Origin: Flavobacteriales bacterium
GTDB lineage: Bacteria > Bacteroidota > Bacteroidia > Flavobacteriales_F > PHOS-HE28
Direction: 5' to 3'
NCBI GenBank assembly: GCA_017987115.1
Contig: JAGNUG010000032.1
Coordinates: forward strand, 1 to 34,140
DNA: 34,140 nucleotides
In this document: positions 1,471-7,815 of the stretch, in pieces
Position numbering within the stretch: the first letter of the stretch is position 1
Layout of the letters: each line of letters opens with the position of its first letter
Position numbers and translations under genes: made by a program
The notes under the pieces: model-generated
Told to the model about the DNA's origin: nothing
Seen by the model: the letters and a program-made list of their open reading frames with translations, nothing else
Database searches by the model: none

Positions 1471-1550
1471 TAACGTTCAGGCTATGAGCAGCGCCCTTTG
1501 TATGTGGGCCTTATTGCGCGGGCAGGCGTTGCGTGTAGCCATTGTTGCGG
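1471..1550 (-). repeat. Terminal attC-like remnant after cassette 1
   Basis: Read on the plus strand, the block ends in GTTGCGGTGTCG at 1544, close to the 5' end of cassette 1 (GTTGTGGTG) and to the 3' box of cassette 3. Its other end, AACGTTCAGGCTAT, resembles the start of the unique half of attC E (AACGTTAAAGCTAT). The conserved 80-bp R'-side half found in all other sites is missing, so this is the degenerate end of the array. Confidence 0.4.
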
Positions 1551-1565
1551 TGTCGTTGTTTCTCT

Positions 1566-1997
1566 TTATTCCCATTCAAACTTGTTCAGGGTCAGGCTAA
1601 TGCTTTCCCCGGCAGTCAGTTTATCGAAGGCAGTCTTGTCAAGCGGACCGGTTACCATTTGTCGTGCCTGTTCGATATCCAGACTGTCAGGTTTTCCATG
1701 TGTGAGGTCAAGCTTTTCGATGACCCAGAATCCAGTTTCACTTCCCGTGTTTGTTTTCGCAACTATCCATTTATCATCAAAAGCAACTTCGCTCACATTC
1801 GCTGGAACCAGTTCGATTCCAGCGTAACAGCATTTTTCATCAGATGTACAGAGGATTAGGATTGTTTGATTGTAGCCGTCCCCAGCCATAAGACTGTATC
1901 CACTACCAAGTTTGTAGTCGCCCCAAGCTTTACAATAGTCCGTGCAAGATGACGCTGACACTAGGACCAGTGCTATGAATAACTGCTTGGCTTTCAT
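1566..1997 (-). CDS. Cassette 1: lipoprotein, DUF3997-like
   Basis: The 143-residue product begins with a lipoprotein signal (KAKQLFIALVLVSASSC, lipid-modified Cys at 18). ATG 1997 is chosen over the in-frame ATG at 2018 because that one lies inside the attC boundary and precedes the signal peptide. The mature part has GSGYSLMAG, a paired CC, FDDKWIVAKTN and GFWVIEK. This run of a beta-rich domain with a 'D..WIVAK' strand reminds me of DUF3997 lipoproteins; the assignment is from memory. The function is unknown. It is last in the array in the direction of transcription. It has no SD stronger than AGCAAG. Confidence 0.7.
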   Translation of the reverse strand: MKAKQLFIALVLVSASSCTDYCKAWGDYKLGSGYSLMAGDGYNQTILILCTSDEKCCYAGIELVPANVSEVAFDDKWIVAKTNTGSETGFWVIEKLDLTHGKPDSLDIEQARQMVTGPLDKTAFDKLTAGESISLTLNKFEWE

Positions 1998-2014
1998 CTT
2001 GCTTTCACAATGCA

Positions 2015-2205
2015 CCACAACTAGCGGATAAACGTAATACGACTAGTAACAAAGGACGTCAAAGATCTTGACCTGGAAGCCTTTCACAACGGTCCTGCGC
2101 TTGCCGCTTGCCGCCTTTCGTGATCTTGTTCCTGAACGAAGTTATCATGTTTCAACGCGGGTTGTCACCGGGACGAGGGCGGTTCGCGGCAAAAGCATGT
2201 TGGCG
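2015..2205 (-). repeat. attC A (cassette 2 attC)
   Basis: Boundary boxes are CCACAAC at 2015-2021 and GTTGGCG at 2199-2205 on the plus strand. It has both the conserved R'-side half (about 2021-2090) and the common R''-side half. The latter carries a long imperfect hairpin between a GCCGCTTGCCGCC arm and a GGGCGGTTCGCGGC arm. The 191-bp length is longer than usual attC sites. Confidence 0.7.
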
Positions 2206-2215
2206 GTAGTTCCTT

Positions 2216-2722
2216 TCAGAATGTGTATTTTCTATTGAACAATCCGGTTTTATACTCTTCGTGTCCCAAATAATTAAACCCAAGTTCAAGAAACTTGTCG
2301 TGTAATGTTTGGAAAGAACAATAGTTATACTCGATTAGTTCTATTGGTTCATATTGATTCAAGTATAATATAATCGACTTGCTCTTGAAAATACTGATGC
2401 CCCAGTAGATACCGAACTTTATTTCTGAAGTTGAAAATCCTCTAACTGATTCAAAGTCTATTTTTCTCTGACTACCTATGATTGGCCGAATCAGAAGTAC
2501 GCTACCGTTTTTGATTTTCAGATGGAATGTCTCTCGATGAATTGACCTGATGAAGGATGTGAGAAATATCGGAAATGACATGAACGCGAATACAACGTAG
2601 AACCACTCTTTGGTGATTTTGCCGTGAAACACAAGCGACGCTAAAACAACAAGACTAGCAATGAGGAACAATACAAAGAGAACTCTACCAAGGAATATGA
2701 ATATGTTGTAATTAACAGACAT
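2216..2722 (-). CDS. Cassette 2: two-TM protein with PH-like domain
   Basis: The 168-residue protein has two N-terminal hydrophobic helices, at about residues 7-30 and 40-60, with a short loop between. A soluble, probably beta-rich domain follows (FHLKIKNGSVLLIRPIIG, QRKIDFESVRGFS). The layout, two helices then a strand-rich 'I.N..L.L......I.F..I' domain, resembles bacterial PH-like membrane proteins; I infer the fold and do not recognise the family. The start ATG 2722 has a good SD (GGAAG) seven bases upstream. It is the same general architecture as cassette 7, though the sequences are not closely alike. Confidence 0.7.
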   Translation of the reverse strand: MSVNYNIFIFLGRVLFVLFLIASLVVLASLVFHGKITKEWFYVVFAFMSFPIFLTSFIRSIHRETFHLKIKNGSVLLIRPIIGSQRKIDFESVRGFSTSEIKFGIYWGISIFKSKSIILYLNQYEPIELIEYNYCSFQTLHDKFLELGFNYLGHEEYKTGLFNRKYTF

Positions 2723-2740
2723 GTATCTTCCAGTAATTAC

Positions 2741-2916
2741 CGCCGACTAGCGGATAAGCGTAATACGACTAGTAACAAAGGACGTCAAAGATCTTGACCT
2801 GAAAGCTTTTCACAACGTACTAATCGATATGGTCTGTACCGTGGAAAAAGCGGAGCTTTCTCCAGCCCGCTGCGCGCGGGATTTGTGTGGGTATAGTCTA
2901 TAATCGGGTGTTGTGG
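2741..2916 (-). repeat. attC B (cassette 3 attC, divergent half)
   Basis: The boxes are CGCCGAC (2741-2747, GTC instead of GTT on the gene strand) and GTTGTGG (2910-2916). The R'-side half up to CACAAC at 2816 matches the other sites. The rest is unrelated to the common R''-side half and contains its own hairpins, AAAAAGCGGAGCTTTCT and CCCGCTGCGCGCGGG. It is a mosaic site. Confidence 0.6.
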
Positions 2917-2927
2917 TGTCGTTTTTT

Positions 2928-3299
2928 TTAGTCAATGTAATAATATCCAATTCGTTCAACCACGATTTTATCTTTTAAGTAGACCTGTCTCAGTCTGTAA
3001 TGAGTTGAACTAGGTGATTCACTGTATTGAAATCCGACTATTTCGTCTCTAGGTTCCCAGCGCACAATTGGTTCACCTAGAATTTCAAGAACTTCTTTTT
3101 CGGTCATTCCCTTGTTGATTTTGAGAAATCCTTTGTCCGTGTATTCATCAGCGAACACTGTATCATGTTTCGGTGACAGATATTCAAATAGCAACCCCCA
3201 GTACCCTTCAATCCTCAGATTCGAAGACGTGAATTTCAACCCCCAAAGAATCACAACAACTCCGAGAGCTGCCAGTCCTATTTTCTTTATCGCTTGCAT
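2928..3299 (-). CDS. Cassette 3: membrane-anchored SmpA/OmlA-like protein
   Basis: The 123-residue protein starts with one hydrophobic segment (IGLAALGVVVILWGLKF, about residues 6-22) that may be a signal anchor; there is no lipobox Cys. The motif INKGMTEKEVLEILGEP (about residues 60-76) is typical of the SmpA/OmlA (BamE-like) fold, where a GMT..EV...LG.P helix-turn precedes a small beta sheet. Bacterial proteins with this fold often stabilise outer-membrane or periplasmic complexes, but this one is a short cassette protein and its role is not predictable. ATG 3299 has only a weak A-rich SD. The cassette's 5' GTTGTGGTG is exactly complementary to its own 3' CACCACAAC. Confidence 0.75.
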   Translation of the reverse strand: MQAIKKIGLAALGVVVILWGLKFTSSNLRIEGYWGLLFEYLSPKHDTVFADEYTDKGFLKINKGMTEKEVLEILGEPIVRWEPRDEIVGFQYSESPSSTHYRLRQVYLKDKIVVERIGYYYID

Positions 3300-3312
3300 T
3301 TATTTGAATGCA

Positions 3313-3507
3313 CCACAACGGCGGATAAACGTAATACGTTTATCCGATATCAAAGAACGGCAAAGATCTTGACCTGAAAGCCTTTCACAACGGTCCTGCG
3401 CTTGCCGCATACCGCCTTTCGTGATCTTGTTCCTGGACGAAATGTGTTCAACCCTTCAACGGGAGTTGGCAACGGGACGATGGCGGTTTGTGGCAAGCAT
3501 GTTAGCA
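3313..3507 (-). repeat. attC C (cassette 4 attC)
   Basis: The boxes are CCACAAC (3313-3319) and GTTAGCA (3501-3507). The R'-side half carries a 25-bp near-perfect palindrome at 3322-3346 (arms CGGATAAACGTA). The R''-side half has arms at 3401-3416 (CTTGCCGCATACCGCC) and 3482-3497 (GGCGGTTTGTGGCAAG) pairing at 14 of 16 positions. A TTTCGT/ACGAAA stem is nested inside. Confidence 0.75.
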
Positions 3508-3512
3508 GCCGT

Positions 3513-4079
3513 TTATTTATATTCTTCGAAATGGAAGCTCAGAAAGAACGATAAGGTGTCAGGAACACCCATGGCGTTTCGTTTCTCCCTGAATTCATTG
3601 TATGAATAGGTATTGAACGTTTTACAGTCGTTATCAACGTCAACAATTGACCACCTTGGAAGCACCTTATAGTCAGTAGTGGAGTCTGATTTAATTTCTA
3701 CATATGGATAGCGAAGATGCCATTTGCCATACATATTGACAACATCTTGTCTGTAATGAAACAAGAAGTAGGCTATATCAGCCGAGTCCTTGATTTCTCT
3801 GAAAAGTATCCGAGTTCCAATCGTATCGGTTGGTATTCCATGAGGATACGGATGTGATTGAGCAATGACAAAATTATCGGTCCAGCCAATTTTGGTAATA
3901 GTATTGTTGAGCACAGCCCCTGAACTGCTCTTCTTAAATAGTGCCATCTCTTCCATCCTGAACATTGCGTTGAGACGGAGCCCACCGGGTAGTTCCTTAT
4001 GATAAACGGATGGATTATCGCCAAAGTAGCAGCCTTGCAGAAGTAGAATTAGTAAACAGCGAAGGAGAGGGTATTTCAT
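3513..4079 (-). CDS. Cassette 4: lipoprotein, possibly DUF3997-like
   Basis: The 188-residue protein has a lipoprotein signal (MKYPLLRCLLILLLQGC, lipid Cys at 17). The mature part includes LPGGLRLNAMF, ITKIGWTDNFVIAQSHP and VLPRWSIVDVDN. The 'GWTDNFVIAQ' strand is like the 'FDDKWIVAK' strand of cassette 1, so the two may share a DUF3997-type domain; this is inference from motif and layout. No enzyme motif is seen. ATG 4079 lies 18 bp inside the cassette boundary, with a weak AAAGA SD. The stop is five bases from attC C. Confidence 0.65.
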   Translation of the reverse strand: MKYPLLRCLLILLLQGCYFGDNPSVYHKELPGGLRLNAMFRMEEMALFKKSSSGAVLNNTITKIGWTDNFVIAQSHPYPHGIPTDTIGTRILFREIKDSADIAYFLFHYRQDVVNMYGKWHLRYPYVEIKSDSTTDYKVLPRWSIVDVDNDCKTFNTYSYNEFREKRNAMGVPDTLSFFLSFHFEEYK

Positions 4080-4090
4080 TCTTTAATGAC

Positions 4091-4276
4091 GGCTAACTAG
4101 CGGATAAACATAATACGACTAGATATCAAAGAACGTCAAAGATCTTGACCTGAAAGCCTTTCACAAAGGGCCTGCGCATACCGCCTTTCGTGATCTTGTT
4201 CCTGGACGAAATGTACAACCCTTCAACGGGAGTTAGCAATGGGACGAGGGCGGTTTGCGGCAAGAGCATGTTAGCC
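4091..4276 (-). repeat. attC D (cassette 5 attC)
   Basis: The boxes GGCTAAC (4091-4097) and GTTAGCC (4270-4276) are exact inverted repeats. It has the conserved R'-side half, here with the ACGACTAG variant instead of the full palindrome, and the common R''-side half. The length is 186 bp. Confidence 0.75.
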
Positions 4277-4284
4277 GCTGGCTT

Positions 4285-4665
4285 TTATTTTAATCTTAAT
4301 TCTATTGTTCGCTTATGGGTGTCAATGTCAATCCAATCCAGTGTTTCTTCACTTGGTATGCAGTCAATCAATTCTGTCCCCTTGGCAAAACGTCGAAGGG
4401 AGGATTTACCGAAATGAATGGTCATATGGTATTCATCCTGTCCAGTCTTTCCAATCCAAGCCTTCGTTACAATTTTACGAGTATCATTCACGCATTTTTG
4501 CGTCAACTGCGTATCCATTGCTGGAAACCATGATACACCATCACACCAAAATCCTTTCAGGTCTGGTCGATTTGAGTTGGCAAAAGTTTGACCTAAGTGA
4601 TATTCCAGCTGAGTGCAGAATTCCTCATTAAATGGCGAATCTCTATTTGACTCGATCTCTGGCAT
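4285..4665 (-). CDS. Cassette 5: hypothetical cytoplasmic protein
   Basis: The 126-residue protein has no signal peptide or membrane helix, unlike the other seven cassette products. Conserved-looking stretches are FCTQLEYHLGQTF, DLKGFWCDGVSWFP, IVTKAWIGKTGQDEYHM and CIPSEETLDWIDIDTHKR. The last part reads as a small beta sheet ending ELRLK. I have the impression of similar hypothetical proteins in Bacteroidota but know no function. ATG 4665 is preceded by AGCAAGA, a plausible SD, 11 bp inside the cassette boundary. Confidence 0.65.
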   Translation of the reverse strand: MPEIESNRDSPFNEEFCTQLEYHLGQTFANSNRPDLKGFWCDGVSWFPAMDTQLTQKCVNDTRKIVTKAWIGKTGQDEYHMTIHFGKSSLRRFAKGTELIDCIPSEETLDWIDIDTHKRTIELRLK

Positions 4666-4675
4666 TCTTGCTTGT

Positions 4676-4827
4676 AGCTAACTAGCGGATAAACGTAATA
4701 CGTTTATCCGATATCATAGGACGGCAAAGATCTTGACCTGAAAGCCTTTCACAACGTTAAAGCTATCAAACTAAGCTTGGCATTGCGGGTGGATTTGCGT
4801 GGCTTTGTTTTATAGGTAATGTTGTAG
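4676..4827 (-). repeat. attC E (cassette 6 attC, divergent half)
   Basis: The boxes are AGCTAAC (4676-4682) and GTTGTAG (4821-4827). The R'-side half carries the full palindrome at 4686-4710 and matches the other sites up to CACAAC at 4755. The remaining 72 bp are unique. At 152 bp this is the shortest complete site. Confidence 0.65.
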
Positions 4828-4831
4828 TGAG

Positions 4832-5677
4832 TTATTTCATTTCTCTAGCAATACACCTGAATCCAACTTCTGGCGAGCTGACTGCATATTCCATAGTGCC
4901 TCTGGCCAAACAATCTGACGCAGTGCTTTTATATGAACCGCCTACCGCCAAGCCATTAGTATTTAACATTTCAGCTGCATTTCCATACATATCCCAAAGG
5001 CCGTTGTGACAGTGCTCCAGATTAGTAGAATATTCTTTCCAATAACTGAGCGAATTGGTTCCGTAGTTGAACGTTCTTTCACCCAGTTTGTTAATGCTAT
5101 CAATGTCAAAAGTTAGTGCATCATAAATGGATCTTGAAATAAGCCCGAATTCAAGTCTTCCAGATGACTCTTCGTAACGCAGGTTATCTACTTGCGTCCG
5201 CCATGCACAGAAGTCCTTTGCTTGTTGGAAAGTGATTCCCGTAATCGGGCTGTTCAAGATCTGAGCAGTACTATCACTGAAGTAAGCTCTGTTAAGAACC
5301 AGATTCGTGTTGCTGGAGGATCCCGCACCAGAGGCAATTCCTTGTTCATTATGTAGGTCCAACAGGTTCAGTAAAAGAGTGTAGTAGGGATATGAGGGTG
5401 CTGGTAGAAAGGTTTCATCCAATGGGGTTCGTATGATCAGCTCAAGCTCTTCTTCAGAATGCTCCTTTCGATTTATGAAGGAGCCAATTCGTTGTGGATC
5501 GGAGTTTTGCATGAATTCAATCCATTCCGCGAGTCGCACCTCCGTTTGATCAACTTGAATCGAATCACCAAACGATAGCATTCCATAACGTTCTATGGAT
5601 GGGTGAGGGCCAGCTCCCAAGTTGACTGACACGCAGCCAGTAGCTATCAAAATAATAAGGAATGCGATGTACTTCAT
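4832..5677 (-). CDS. Cassette 6: lipoprotein with FGE-sulfatase (SUMF1-like) domain
   Basis: The 281-residue protein starts with a lipoprotein signal (MKYIAFLIILIATGC, Cys 15). The in-frame TTG one codon upstream is less likely. The body has formylglycine-generating-enzyme family landmarks in order: VDQTEVRLAEWIEFM near residue 44, SPITGITFQQAKDFCAWR near 140, GLWDMYGNAAEML near 230, then GGSYKS and EVGFRCIAR at the end. Many family members without the paired active-site Cys are not sulfatase-modifying enzymes; GldJ and GldK are lipoproteins of this fold. A structural or binding role at the envelope is therefore more likely than catalysis. It is the largest cassette product. Its cassette ends (GTTGTAGTG and CACTACAAC) are perfectly complementary. 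Confidence 0.8.
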   Translation of the reverse strand: MKYIAFLIILIATGCVSVNLGAGPHPSIERYGMLSFGDSIQVDQTEVRLAEWIEFMQNSDPQRIGSFINRKEHSEEELELIIRTPLDETFLPAPSYPYYTLLLNLLDLHNEQGIASGAGSSSNTNLVLNRAYFSDSTAQILNSPITGITFQQAKDFCAWRTQVDNLRYEESSGRLEFGLISRSIYDALTFDIDSINKLGERTFNYGTNSLSYWKEYSTNLEHCHNGLWDMYGNAAEMLNTNGLAVGGSYKSTASDCLARGTMEYAVSSPEVGFRCIAREMK

Positions 5678-5684
5678 CAATTCA

Positions 5685-5880
5685 CTACAACTAGCGGTTA
5701 AACGTAATACGTTTATCCAATATCAAAGGCCATCAAAGATCTTGACCTGAAAGCCTTTCACAACGGTCCTGCGCTTGCCGCATACCGCCTTTCGTGATCT
5801 TGTTCCTGGACGAAGTGTTTAACCCTTCAACGGGAGTTGGCAACGGGACGAGGGCGGTTTACGGTGAGAGCATGTTACCA
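5685..5880 (-). repeat. attC F (cassette 7 attC)
   Basis: The boxes are CTACAAC (5685-5691) and GTTACCA (5874-5880). Both common halves are present. The palindrome has two point changes (GGTTAAACG and TATCCAAT). The length is 196 bp. Confidence 0.7.
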
Positions 5881-5884
5881 GGCG

Positions 5885-6442
5885 TTAAGTTTTAAATCTA
5901 TCCCTTATTCCCAATGCGTGATACCATTTGACCTGCTTTTGTTTGATGCGATTTTGGTCAAGACCAGCGCTTTTGAAGATGGTTAGAATCTCTGACCTGG
6001 TTTGCAGCAAATACCGCAGATCGTAGCGTTCCACCAAAACTAGGGATTGTCGTGATTTTACTCTTGGACTGGGAAGTGGCTTTTTAAGCTCTAGTTCATA
6101 AAACTGTAATTCGCCTGAGCCTAATCCTATCGTGTTCACAGTTAAACCGGCTATGTTCTGAATGTCAATGATCTCGCCATTCGCCCGATGTAGCTTTTCA
6201 CCCGTTAGGTAAAGGGTATCAGGGATAGTGAATAAGCTATATACTGGACGCATGCCGATCGGTAGAGTAATTGCGAAGCTCAACAGCACTGCTGACTTCA
6301 ATACATCATGCTGCGGTGCGACAAACAAATGCATGACTCCAACGAATACCGCTGATCCAATCGCAGACCAGATGAAGGTATATGCGAAGTCTTTGACCCA
6401 GTTATATGAAATGCGCTTTCTAATGGATGGGGACTTTTTCAA
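5885..6442 (-). CDS. Cassette 7: two-TM membrane protein
   Basis: The 185-residue protein starts with a basic segment (KKSPSIRKR), then hydrophobic helices at about residues 20-42 and 48-68. A soluble domain follows (DTLYLTGEKLHRANGE, LQFYELELKKPLPSPR, QSLVLVERYDLRYLL). The domain order resembles cassette 2: two helices then a strand-rich, possibly PH-like domain. No family is recognised. The start is TTG 6442, because no ATG or GTG occurs before the first helix; GGCAAGC upstream may be a weak SD that overlaps the cassette boundary. Confidence 0.65.
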   Translation of the reverse strand: MKKSPSIRKRISYNWVKDFAYTFIWSAIGSAVFVGVMHLFVAPQHDVLKSAVLLSFAITLPIGMRPVYSLFTIPDTLYLTGEKLHRANGEIIDIQNIAGLTVNTIGLGSGELQFYELELKKPLPSPRVKSRQSLVLVERYDLRYLLQTRSEILTIFKSAGLDQNRIKQKQVKWYHALGIRDRFKT

Positions 6443-6447
6443 ATGCT

Positions 6448-6634
6448 TGCCAACTAGCGGATAAACGTAATCCCTTTTCCGATATCAAAGGACGTCAAAG
6501 ATCTTGACCTGAAAGTCTTTCACAACGGTCCTGCGCTTGCCGCCTTTCGTGATCTTGTTCCTGAACGAAGTTATCATGTTTCAACGCGGGTTGTCACCGG
6601 GACGAGGGCGGTTCGCGGCAAGAGCATATTGGGG
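6448..6634 (-). repeat. attC G (cassette 8 attC, mutated box)
   Basis: The boxes are TGCCAAC (6448-6454) and ATTGGGG (6628-6634). The second has ATT where the other complete sites have GTT, so the conserved AAC on the gene strand is AAT. The palindrome is also degraded (AATCCCTTTTCCG). Both common halves are otherwise present. Confidence 0.65.
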
Positions 6635-6667
6635 GCTGGCATGTTTATCGACCGTACAATGAATGGG

Positions 6668-7366
6668 TCAGATTCTAAGCTTTCCGGCTCCATGAAGATC
6701 AATGTCTTTTGATTTCATGATATTCTTGAATGTCGTTGCGTCCGTAATAATGAAGACATATGAATCGCCTCCTAGGTCGAAGAAAAGCAATTGATGGTTT
6801 AATTGTTTCAGGTCCTTCTCAAGCGCCTTGAATAGACGGATGATGAATTTTCCATCTCTTGTTTCTCTGCCTAAATACTGCTCCCTTAGTTCGACTGTGT
6901 TAGGCCATCTAAGTGTGTCAACTTTTGAGTTGATGAATTCTTCAATCTCACCTTCATTCTCCTCGCCTCTCCAGTCTATAACCAGCGATAGACCCTTATT
7001 GTCTGCAAAGGCTGCCAAGGCATCTATTGGTCTAAACTTCCTTGTCTGATTGTTCAGGTAATAGGTGTAATAGGCTTCGAATTCAGCTTTGTATTGCGAG
7101 AATATGATTTTGCCTATGTCAAAGTAGTGATGGATTTTAGTCTTCAGATTTTTCTTGTTTCTGTACCCTATAATGAATAGATTGATTAGCGCAGCAAGGA
7201 TCAAAAGAATCAAAAAGGTCCATATGATATTTTCATCGAGCTTATCACTTAGCATTGCTGTTATGAAACCAACTCCAAGGACAAGACCAATGAATAAAAC
7301 TAGGCCTATGATTCCAAGAAGTACGTATCGCCATGTTTTGGTTCTCATCTCCAGTTTATTCGTCAT
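6668..7366 (-). CDS. Cassette 8: two-TM membrane protein
   Basis: The 232-residue protein has two strongly hydrophobic helices, at about residues 15-38 and 46-68, on either side of a short charged loop. A soluble C-terminal domain of about 150 residues follows (LSLVIDWRGEENEGEIEEFI, LRWPNTVELREQY, LLFFDLGGDSYVFIITD). That part reads as alpha/beta, but I recognise no family. ATG 7366 has a good SD (AGAAAGGGG). It is the first cassette in the direction of transcription. The 3' untranslated part is longer (about 33 bp) than in the other cassettes. Confidence 0.7.
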   Translation of the reverse strand: MTNKLEMRTKTWRYVLLGIIGLVLFIGLVLGVGFITAMLSDKLDENIIWTFLILLILAALINLFIIGYRNKKNLKTKIHHYFDIGKIIFSQYKAEFEAYYTYYLNNQTRKFRPIDALAAFADNKGLSLVIDWRGEENEGEIEEFINSKVDTLRWPNTVELREQYLGRETRDGKFIIRLFKALEKDLKQLNHQLLFFDLGGDSYVFIITDATTFKNIMKSKDIDLHGAGKLRI

Positions 7367-7388
7367 CAGTGCCCCTTTCTGAGCTTGC

Positions 7389-7468
7389 CGCTAACTATCG
7401 GATAAACGTAATACGTTTATCCGATATCAAAGAACGGCAAAGATCTTGACCTGAAAGCCTTTTACAAC
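7389..7468 (-). repeat. Site H: half attC or attI-like site at the array head
   Basis: Only the conserved R'-side half is present, with box CGCTAAC at 7389-7395 and an intact 29-bp palindrome at 7397-7425. It ends at the internal ACAAC boundary (7468), exactly where attC B and E also change sequence. It may be the retained half of an integration site or a truncated attC. The neighbouring DNA is a terminator, not a cassette. Confidence 0.6.
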
Positions 7469-7487
7469 TGCTACCTATAGAACACCA

Positions 7488-7513
7488 AAAGCCCCCGGAA
7501 CTCCGAGGGCTTT
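7488..7513 (-). terminator. Intrinsic terminator of the FnIII remnant
   Basis: The stem pairs AAAGCCC with GGGCTTT and CGGA with TCCG, with one C/A mismatch and a two-base loop. On the minus strand the stem runs into TTTTGG. It lies 33 bp beyond the stop of the minus-strand FnIII remnant and would shield the array from read-through. Confidence 0.75.
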
Positions 7514-7545
7514 GGTAGTGGAAAAGGGATGCTAACGCGCTTGGC

Positions 7546-7815
7546 TTATGCAGCTTTTGCGGTTACGGCATCGCATACTGGTCCTACGCCTACCACACCT
7601 ACTGCGGCTGCGCGGAACGCGTATTTCTTATCCGTAATAAGGCCCATCACCGTTAGGCGGGCCTTGCTGGTCATGCCATACGTCGCCAGCGGATCAAGTT
7701 GCGTCATCCGTGAAGAGATCCGCCCAAGGACGTGGATATCGACCTGATAACTCCACCGGTGCGTACTGCGAACCCCGGTCAAAAAACCCGACCTTTGTTG
7801 CATAAAATCCACTGG
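7546..7815 (-). pseudogene. C-terminal remnant of a fibronectin type III protein
   Basis: The last 65 or so residues match the end of an FnIII domain: TSKARLTVMGLITDKKYAF, then RAAAVGVVGVGPVCDAVTAKAA in two parts, followed by the stop. Intact Bacteroidota proteins of this type, as I know them, are about 200 residues and have an N-terminal helical domain. Upstream of about 7815 the frame is only the antisense of the next gene, so the 5' part is lost. The middle (HVLGRISSRMTQLDP) lacks the expected DP.K...W.M pattern, suggesting further decay. It has its own terminator. Confidence 0.65.

Follow-up and report, generated by a model that had tools for sequence, protein, structure and literature searches.

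Do eight same-direction open reading frames (ORFs) in the chromosome of an uncultured Flavobacteriales bacterium form an integron-type cassette array, and what are the elements that separate them? We asked this of a 34,140-bp stretch of DNA, hereafter the window, which is an entire contig of a draft genome (3.73 Mb in 202 contigs, 96% complete), and compared it with a genus set of 45 genomes that includes the source genome. The 44 congeners are Flavobacteriales/Bacteroidota metagenome-assembled genomes (MAGs) according to their public records. An initial annotation, made from the letters of the window, had proposed a cluster of attC sites lacking integron integrases (CALIN), in which each ORF is ended by a related attC-type element of 150-196 bp. 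We found that the array spans positions 1475-7468 on the minus strand, running from a module at 7468 to the cassette 1 attC at 1475. All eight ORFs do lie on the minus strand, within 1566-7366, with intergenic elements between them. The lengths of 150-196 bp stand as well, but the elements are not single attC sites; each is a composite of an attC (77-123 bp) and a separate 69-73-bp module resembling a repeat of a clustered regularly interspaced short palindromic repeats (CRISPR) array, which we call M, and cassette 1 terminates in an attC without M. Sites were assigned as attC by similarity and folding, and cassette proteins were assigned to families by Pfam cut-offs.

The integron character of the array is written in the ends of its cassettes. 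The nine bases after each GTT box, GTT itself excluded, were compared with the 3′ box of every cassette. The 5′ and 3′ ends of the same cassette gave 48 of 72 possible matches; the average over the 40,320 possible pairings was 26.4, and only 2 of these permutations did as well, whereas the ends of neighboring cassettes gave only 15-17 matches over seven pairs. Thus, the proposal that the 5′ bases of a cassette pair with its own 3′ end and not with that of its neighbor was correct, and the match is the R″/R′ trace of circular cassettes cut at G^TT. Plain tandem gene duplication was rejected, as the pairing is cassette-specific and the eight proteins have no common family.

Folding of the bottom strand, which had been set as a check, gave further support to circular cassettes with a split site. 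For attC6, attC3, attC2 and attC1, the 5′ bases of the same cassette gave a better fold than those of another cassette, and attC6 reached −19.0 kcal/mol with its own bases against a mean of −11.5 with others. When the R and L stems were scored, attC4 (z = −3.5), attC6 (−3.1) and attC3 (−2.5) folded better than shuffles and attC7 and attC1 did not; the source genome also has, on a different contig and without M, a main-type attC whose fold gave z = −6.0. The entire 150-196-bp element as a single long attC was rejected because stem pairing does not extend beyond the 77-123-bp part and M is missing where this attC occurs elsewhere.

A 117-bp query for the main attC type returned 15 matches in the source genome (five in the window, seven on contig C17 and one each on C175, C46 and C51). 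Matches were also found in 10 of the 44 congeners, that in G012 being a 30-bp piece only, and none was found in other genera among 295 genomes of the class. At most of the other sites this genus-type attC directly precedes GTTRRRY and a next, different sequence; the same elements therefore do occur with other sequence elsewhere, on four further contigs and in the 10 congeners, as the initial annotation had suggested looking for. Cassettes 1, 3 and 6 have attC sites unrelated to the main type, and in this respect the description of the elements as related did not hold; no further occurrence of the attC6 type was found in the genus. Contig C17 (L049 1-20000 and L050, G000:C17) carries a larger cassette array with seven genus-type attC copies and no M, and other attC types probably lie between these copies.

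No integrase had been seen in the window, and no IntI reaching E = 1e-40 was found in the 45 genus genomes, a negative that is not fully controlled because the control genomes carry no IntI, so that the sensitivity of the search is not shown. Two tyrosine recombinases are encoded in the source genome, an XerD-like one of 296 aa and an XerC-like one of 299 aa. The features of a CALIN are all present, namely tandem attC sites and ORFs in one direction, bottom-strand folds with paired R and L stems, an unpaired center and an extrahelical base, R′/R″ pairing and other cargo at other sites, and the IntI of a complete integron was not found. We conclude that this is a genuine integron-type array of eight cassettes, which we class as a CALIN because no IntI was found in the genus and only XerC and XerD in the source genome. 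A phage or plasmid origin was rejected, there being no phage, plasmid or viral-contig match, and no known RNA family in Rfam was matched. Complete integrons are rarely reported in Bacteroidetes (PMC9024848). Across the genus the attC family is present in 11 genomes, yet an integron integrase was detected in 0 of 45, which makes it an added case for how attC families persist in Bacteroidota.

What, then, is the module? M is present in eight copies, each immediately preceding a cassette's GTT box, all in gene direction and with exact G^TT boundaries; seven of the eight adjoin the preceding attC, and M8, before cassette 8, adjoins flanking DNA. Since M adjoins unrelated attC types (those of cassettes 3 and 6 and the genus type), comparison of the junctions argues that M was not inherited as a piece of a single attC. 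When the conserved right half of the element served as a BLAST query, it matched tandem arrays of congeners that repeat every 76 bp (E 4e-11 to 2e-14). These are type II-C CRISPR arrays with a 46-bp repeat, GTTGTGAAAGGCTTTCAGGTCAAGATCTTTGACGAGCTGTGATACC, and unique 29-30-bp spacers; G004, G008, G024 and G026 have 23 to 98 repeat units, and G009 and G017 have one or two. The first 46 bp of M are identical to the genus II-C repeat at 40-41 of 46 positions (87-89%), including 32-33 of the first 34, and this alignment firmly supports homology between the two. Columns 16-31 of M are invariant, the 3′ end of the repeat part is variable, and its last 12 bases have diverged from the repeat. Beyond the repeat part follows a palindrome of ~27 bp, GGATAAACGTATTACGTTTATCCGCTA, which in some copies is altered in its left arm. 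The CALIN reading of the initial annotation is therefore sound, but the right-hand part of what it took for attC is a derivative of a II-C CRISPR repeat followed by a palindrome, which it had missed.

The array lacks the regular ~30-bp unique spacers of a CRISPR array; after each repeat part come the common palindrome and then a gene cassette. No M was found outside the array in the source genome, the palindrome was found in 0 of 44 congeners, and a strict pattern for M gave zero matches in other public genomes. Among the GTDB r220 representatives scanned, arrays of a repeat 20-mer occurred only in Flavobacteriales/Bacteroidota MAGs, and three single matches were at about chance level. Congener CRISPR spacers gave scattered short matches to the array and attC loci, with E ~0.004 for the best among the matches listed, and the search used did not recognize a trans-activating CRISPR RNA (tracrRNA) anti-repeat in the congeneric CRISPR loci. 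One congener CRISPR array (L032, G026:C50) has, on the minus strand at ~12486, a shortened and diverged repeat (...GATCTTTGAGAAAGGGGCGAAAAG) before its last two full repeats.

The distribution of cas9 bears on the idea that the modules are solitary CRISPR repeats acting as RNA decoys, similar to RNA anti-CRISPRs (Racrs), against the type II-C Cas9 of related hosts, and that they travel as passengers with the cassettes. A candidate hallmark of Racrs is CRISPR repeats without cas genes next to promoter-like sequence (PMC10651486), and a matching Cas9 is present in congeners, as cas9 was found in all six of the tested congeners with the repeat. However, neither cas9, the would-be target, nor a matching CRISPR array was found in the source genome at its 96% completeness, the array is chromosomal with no phage, plasmid or viral-contig match, a decoy needs no place before each cassette, and the last 12 bases of the repeat have diverged. 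We consider decoys very unlikely.

The chromosomal site speaks to whether the modules are instead the remains of a CRISPR locus. The array lies between the 3′ part of mazG and a gene for a protein sorted by the type IX secretion system (T9SS). Most congeners that were read have mazG and then this T9SS gene; ~100 bp separate the two in G003, unrelated genes intervene in several other congeners, and no CRISPR repeats were found between the two genes in the congeners read. Because the syntenic site holds unrelated genes or ~100 bp and no CRISPR, the array is, as judged from synteny, a lineage-specific insertion and not a remodeled CRISPR locus; nor is the gene order fixed in all relatives, which the initial annotation had named as evidence against cassettes. 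Insertion of cassettes at the CRISPR locus of congeners was likewise rejected, as synteny places the array elsewhere. We also considered cassettes inserted singly at the GTT that starts each repeat of a decaying CRISPR array, with M as leftover repeat plus spacer. CRISPR repeats do start with GTTGTGA, which is near the R′ box GTTRRRY, the 69-73 bp of M are close to the 76-bp repeat-spacer unit, and the junctions are compatible with insertion at G^TT. Yet all eight "spacers" would be the same palindrome or its variants, where true spacers differ, and the syntenic congener locus is without CRISPR, which leaves this account with very little probability.

Integron cassettes are normally without promoters and rely on a promoter beside attI. 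In flavobacteria, each II-C repeat is reported to contain a promoter that reads into the adjacent spacer, the proposed element in Flavobacterium columnare and F. psychrophilum being a TTG that lies 33-35 bp before every spacer, and the promoter box of the phylum is TAnnTTTG (PMC8092290, PMC10309648). The two-box motif TTG-N19-GATCTTTG is intact in 8/8 M copies and occurs nowhere else in the window, and it arose in 3 of 20,000 shuffles of the repeat. GA(C/T)CTTTG is the common form of CTTTG 10-60 bp before start codons in genus loci. Because II-C repeats are reported to hold promoters and M keeps both boxes, M would start transcription into the cassette, and we suggest that it most likely acts as the promoter of its cassette.

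With moderate confidence, we propose that the array is a CALIN whose cassettes each have a promoter of their own, supplied by a captured CRISPR repeat. Cassettes with several attC types would have entered by ordinary integron recombination at G^TT, with the integrase since lost or provided from elsewhere. A type II-C repeat unit of the genus would have been captured at the array head, presumably from a CRISPR array, and as M this unit would now stand between every attC and the next cassette. The cassette would thus occupy the place of the spacer with the M promoter reading into it, so that each cassette would be expressed without the usual integron promoter.

Several points weigh against this proposal. 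The promoter activity of M is one that we infer, its TTG box is only three bases long, a clear −33 element is not evident in the genus alignment, and a promoter leaves the palindrome 3′ of the repeat part without explanation. There is one M per cassette, whereas a module is not duplicated when a cassette inserts in the ordinary way, and the M left of cassette 8 adjoins host DNA and not an attC. The source draft is in 202 contigs with repeats, and an assembly error driven by repeats is possible. M could have multiplied by cassette and M units moving jointly, by recombination within M or by homologous recombination between M copies. A tentative and rather unlikely variant is that the CRISPR repeat unit was taken over as the head element of the array, serving as both promoter and insertion site, and that cassette and M move jointly, each insertion bringing a CRISPR-derived promoter.

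The palindrome and the one-to-one distribution of M would be accounted for if M were a working recombination site, attI-like or Xer-like, with the palindrome GGATAAACGTATTACGTTTATCC as its core, such that cassette, attC and M move as a whole and each insertion adds one M. Such a site explains why M is found in 8/8 positions, which ordinary cassette insertion does not, and it is consistent with the exact G^TT boundaries on both sides and with 10-bp palindrome arms that give a strong single-strand fold (z = −4.95). The left arm is nevertheless changed in half of the modules (M1, M2, M4 and M7), no recombinase is encoded nearby in a genome with only XerC and XerD, M is at no other locus or genome searched, and the R″/R′ trace indicates an IntI-type crossover outside M. 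We regard a recombination site as distinctly unlikely.

IS1111-attC elements and group IIC-attC introns insert at attC sites, and M might similarly be a miniature mobile element that targets the attC/GTT boundary. An identical insertion point and orientation eight times over, across unrelated attC types, would fit such an element. M is without terminal inverted repeats, though, no copy was found at the many other attC sites of the genome, and M8 does not adjoin an attC, making a mobile element extremely unlikely. We retain a CRISPR-derived promoter as the preferred explanation of M.

Table 1. Modules, cassettes and attC sites in gene order, from array head to array end (window coordinates).
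Feature	Position	Strand	Cassette box	Description
Module M8	7396..7468	-		Array head; CRISPR-repeat-like 46 bp + palindrome 27 bp; left neighbor is flanking DNA with terminator-like hairpin, not attC
Cassette 8	6642..7395	-	GTTAGCGGC	ORF 6668-7366, 232 aa, DUF6630-like
attC of cassette 8	6527..6641	-		Genus-type
Module M7	6455..6526	-		
Cassette 7	5886..6454	-	GTTGGC	ORF 5885-6442, 185 aa, no family
attC of cassette 7	5765..5885	-		Genus-type
Module M6	5692..5764	-		
Cassette 6	4833..5691	-	GTTGTAGTGA	ORF 4832-5677, lipoprotein with FGE-sulfatase/SUMF1-like domain, slightly below Pfam cut-off
attC of cassette 6	4756..4832	-		Short, unrelated type
Module M5	4683..4755	-		
Cassette 5	4285..4682	-	GTTAGCTAC	ORF 4285-4665, 126 aa, no family
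attC of cassette 5	4168..4284	-		Genus-type, small deletion in L′
Module M4	4098..4167	-		
Cassette 4	3515..4097	-	GTTAGCCGT	ORF 3513-4079, 188 aa, weak DUF3997 similarity
attC of cassette 4	3392..3514	-		Genus-type
Module M3	3320..3391	-		
Cassette 3	2924..3319	-	GTTGTGGTG	ORF 2928-3299, 123 aa, weak BamE similarity
attC of cassette 3	2817..2923	-		Unrelated type
Module M2	2748..2816	-		
Cassette 2	2214..2747	-	GTCGGCGGTA	ORF 2216-2722, 168 aa, no family
attC of cassette 2	2091..2213	-		Genus-type
Module M1	2022..2090	-		
Cassette 1	1556..2021	-	GTTGTGGTG	ORF 1566-1994, 142 aa, DUF3997-like lipoprotein, below cut-off
attC of cassette 1	1475..1555	-		Unrelated type; then G^TT and host DNA, no module; array end

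Among the cargo, the DUF6630 domain of cassette 8 exceeds its cut-off and the FGE-sulfatase-like domain of cassette 6 is slightly below. No PADLOC match was found for the cassette proteins, which were searched for a defense function. The DNA around the array has features of its own. The mazG frame at 1011-1421, the sole mazG found in the source genome, is the C-terminal part only, with 138 aa against mostly 260-360 aa in congeners, and the DNA upstream of it (1-1085) is unrelated, indicating a rearrangement or an assembly join near the contig end. At the contig end itself (2-375), a tandem repeat on the minus strand encodes KKTKELAASTKEKM-type units and then CCTATAGTAGTATGGTATA repeats at ~287-375. 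By the array head, 7480-7690 holds a short minus-strand remnant with a fibronectin-type-like end (...KYAFRAAAVGVVGVGPVCDAVTAKAA), and the terminator-like hairpin adjoins M8.

No published account of integron cassette junctions with CRISPR repeats was found, as judged by title and abstract in a coverage that largely excludes the subscription literature. At this locus two of the best-known bacterial arrays that collect foreign sequence meet, and they share one GTT boundary. If M does act as a promoter, it would be a route for expressing every cassette of a CALIN without an integrase or the integron promoter Pc, and M offers a testable case of CRISPR repeat reuse as a regulatory part. As in other CALINs, there are several attC sites, ORFs in one direction, R″/R′ complementarity within the cassette and no integrase; what differs is the 69-73-bp CRISPR-derived module between each attC and the next cassette, and a main attC that is specific to a Flavobacteriales genus. 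With the type II-C CRISPR arrays of Flavobacteriales the array shares a first 46 bp of M that is 87-89% identical to the congener repeat, the same promoter-like boxes and a cassette in the place of the spacer, but the cassettes are several hundred bp long and not 30-bp spacers, the 3′ end of the repeat has diverged and no cas9 was found in the genome. Solitary CRISPR repeat units and Racrs likewise have CRISPR repeats outside a CRISPR-Cas locus; here, in contrast, eight copies are bound to chromosomal cassette junctions and not to a viral element, and no matching Cas9 was found in the host. Finally, the Pc-attI head of an integron also has promoter-like sequence up to the G^TT at which the first cassette inserts, whereas in this array such sequence recurs before every cassette and no intI adjoins it.

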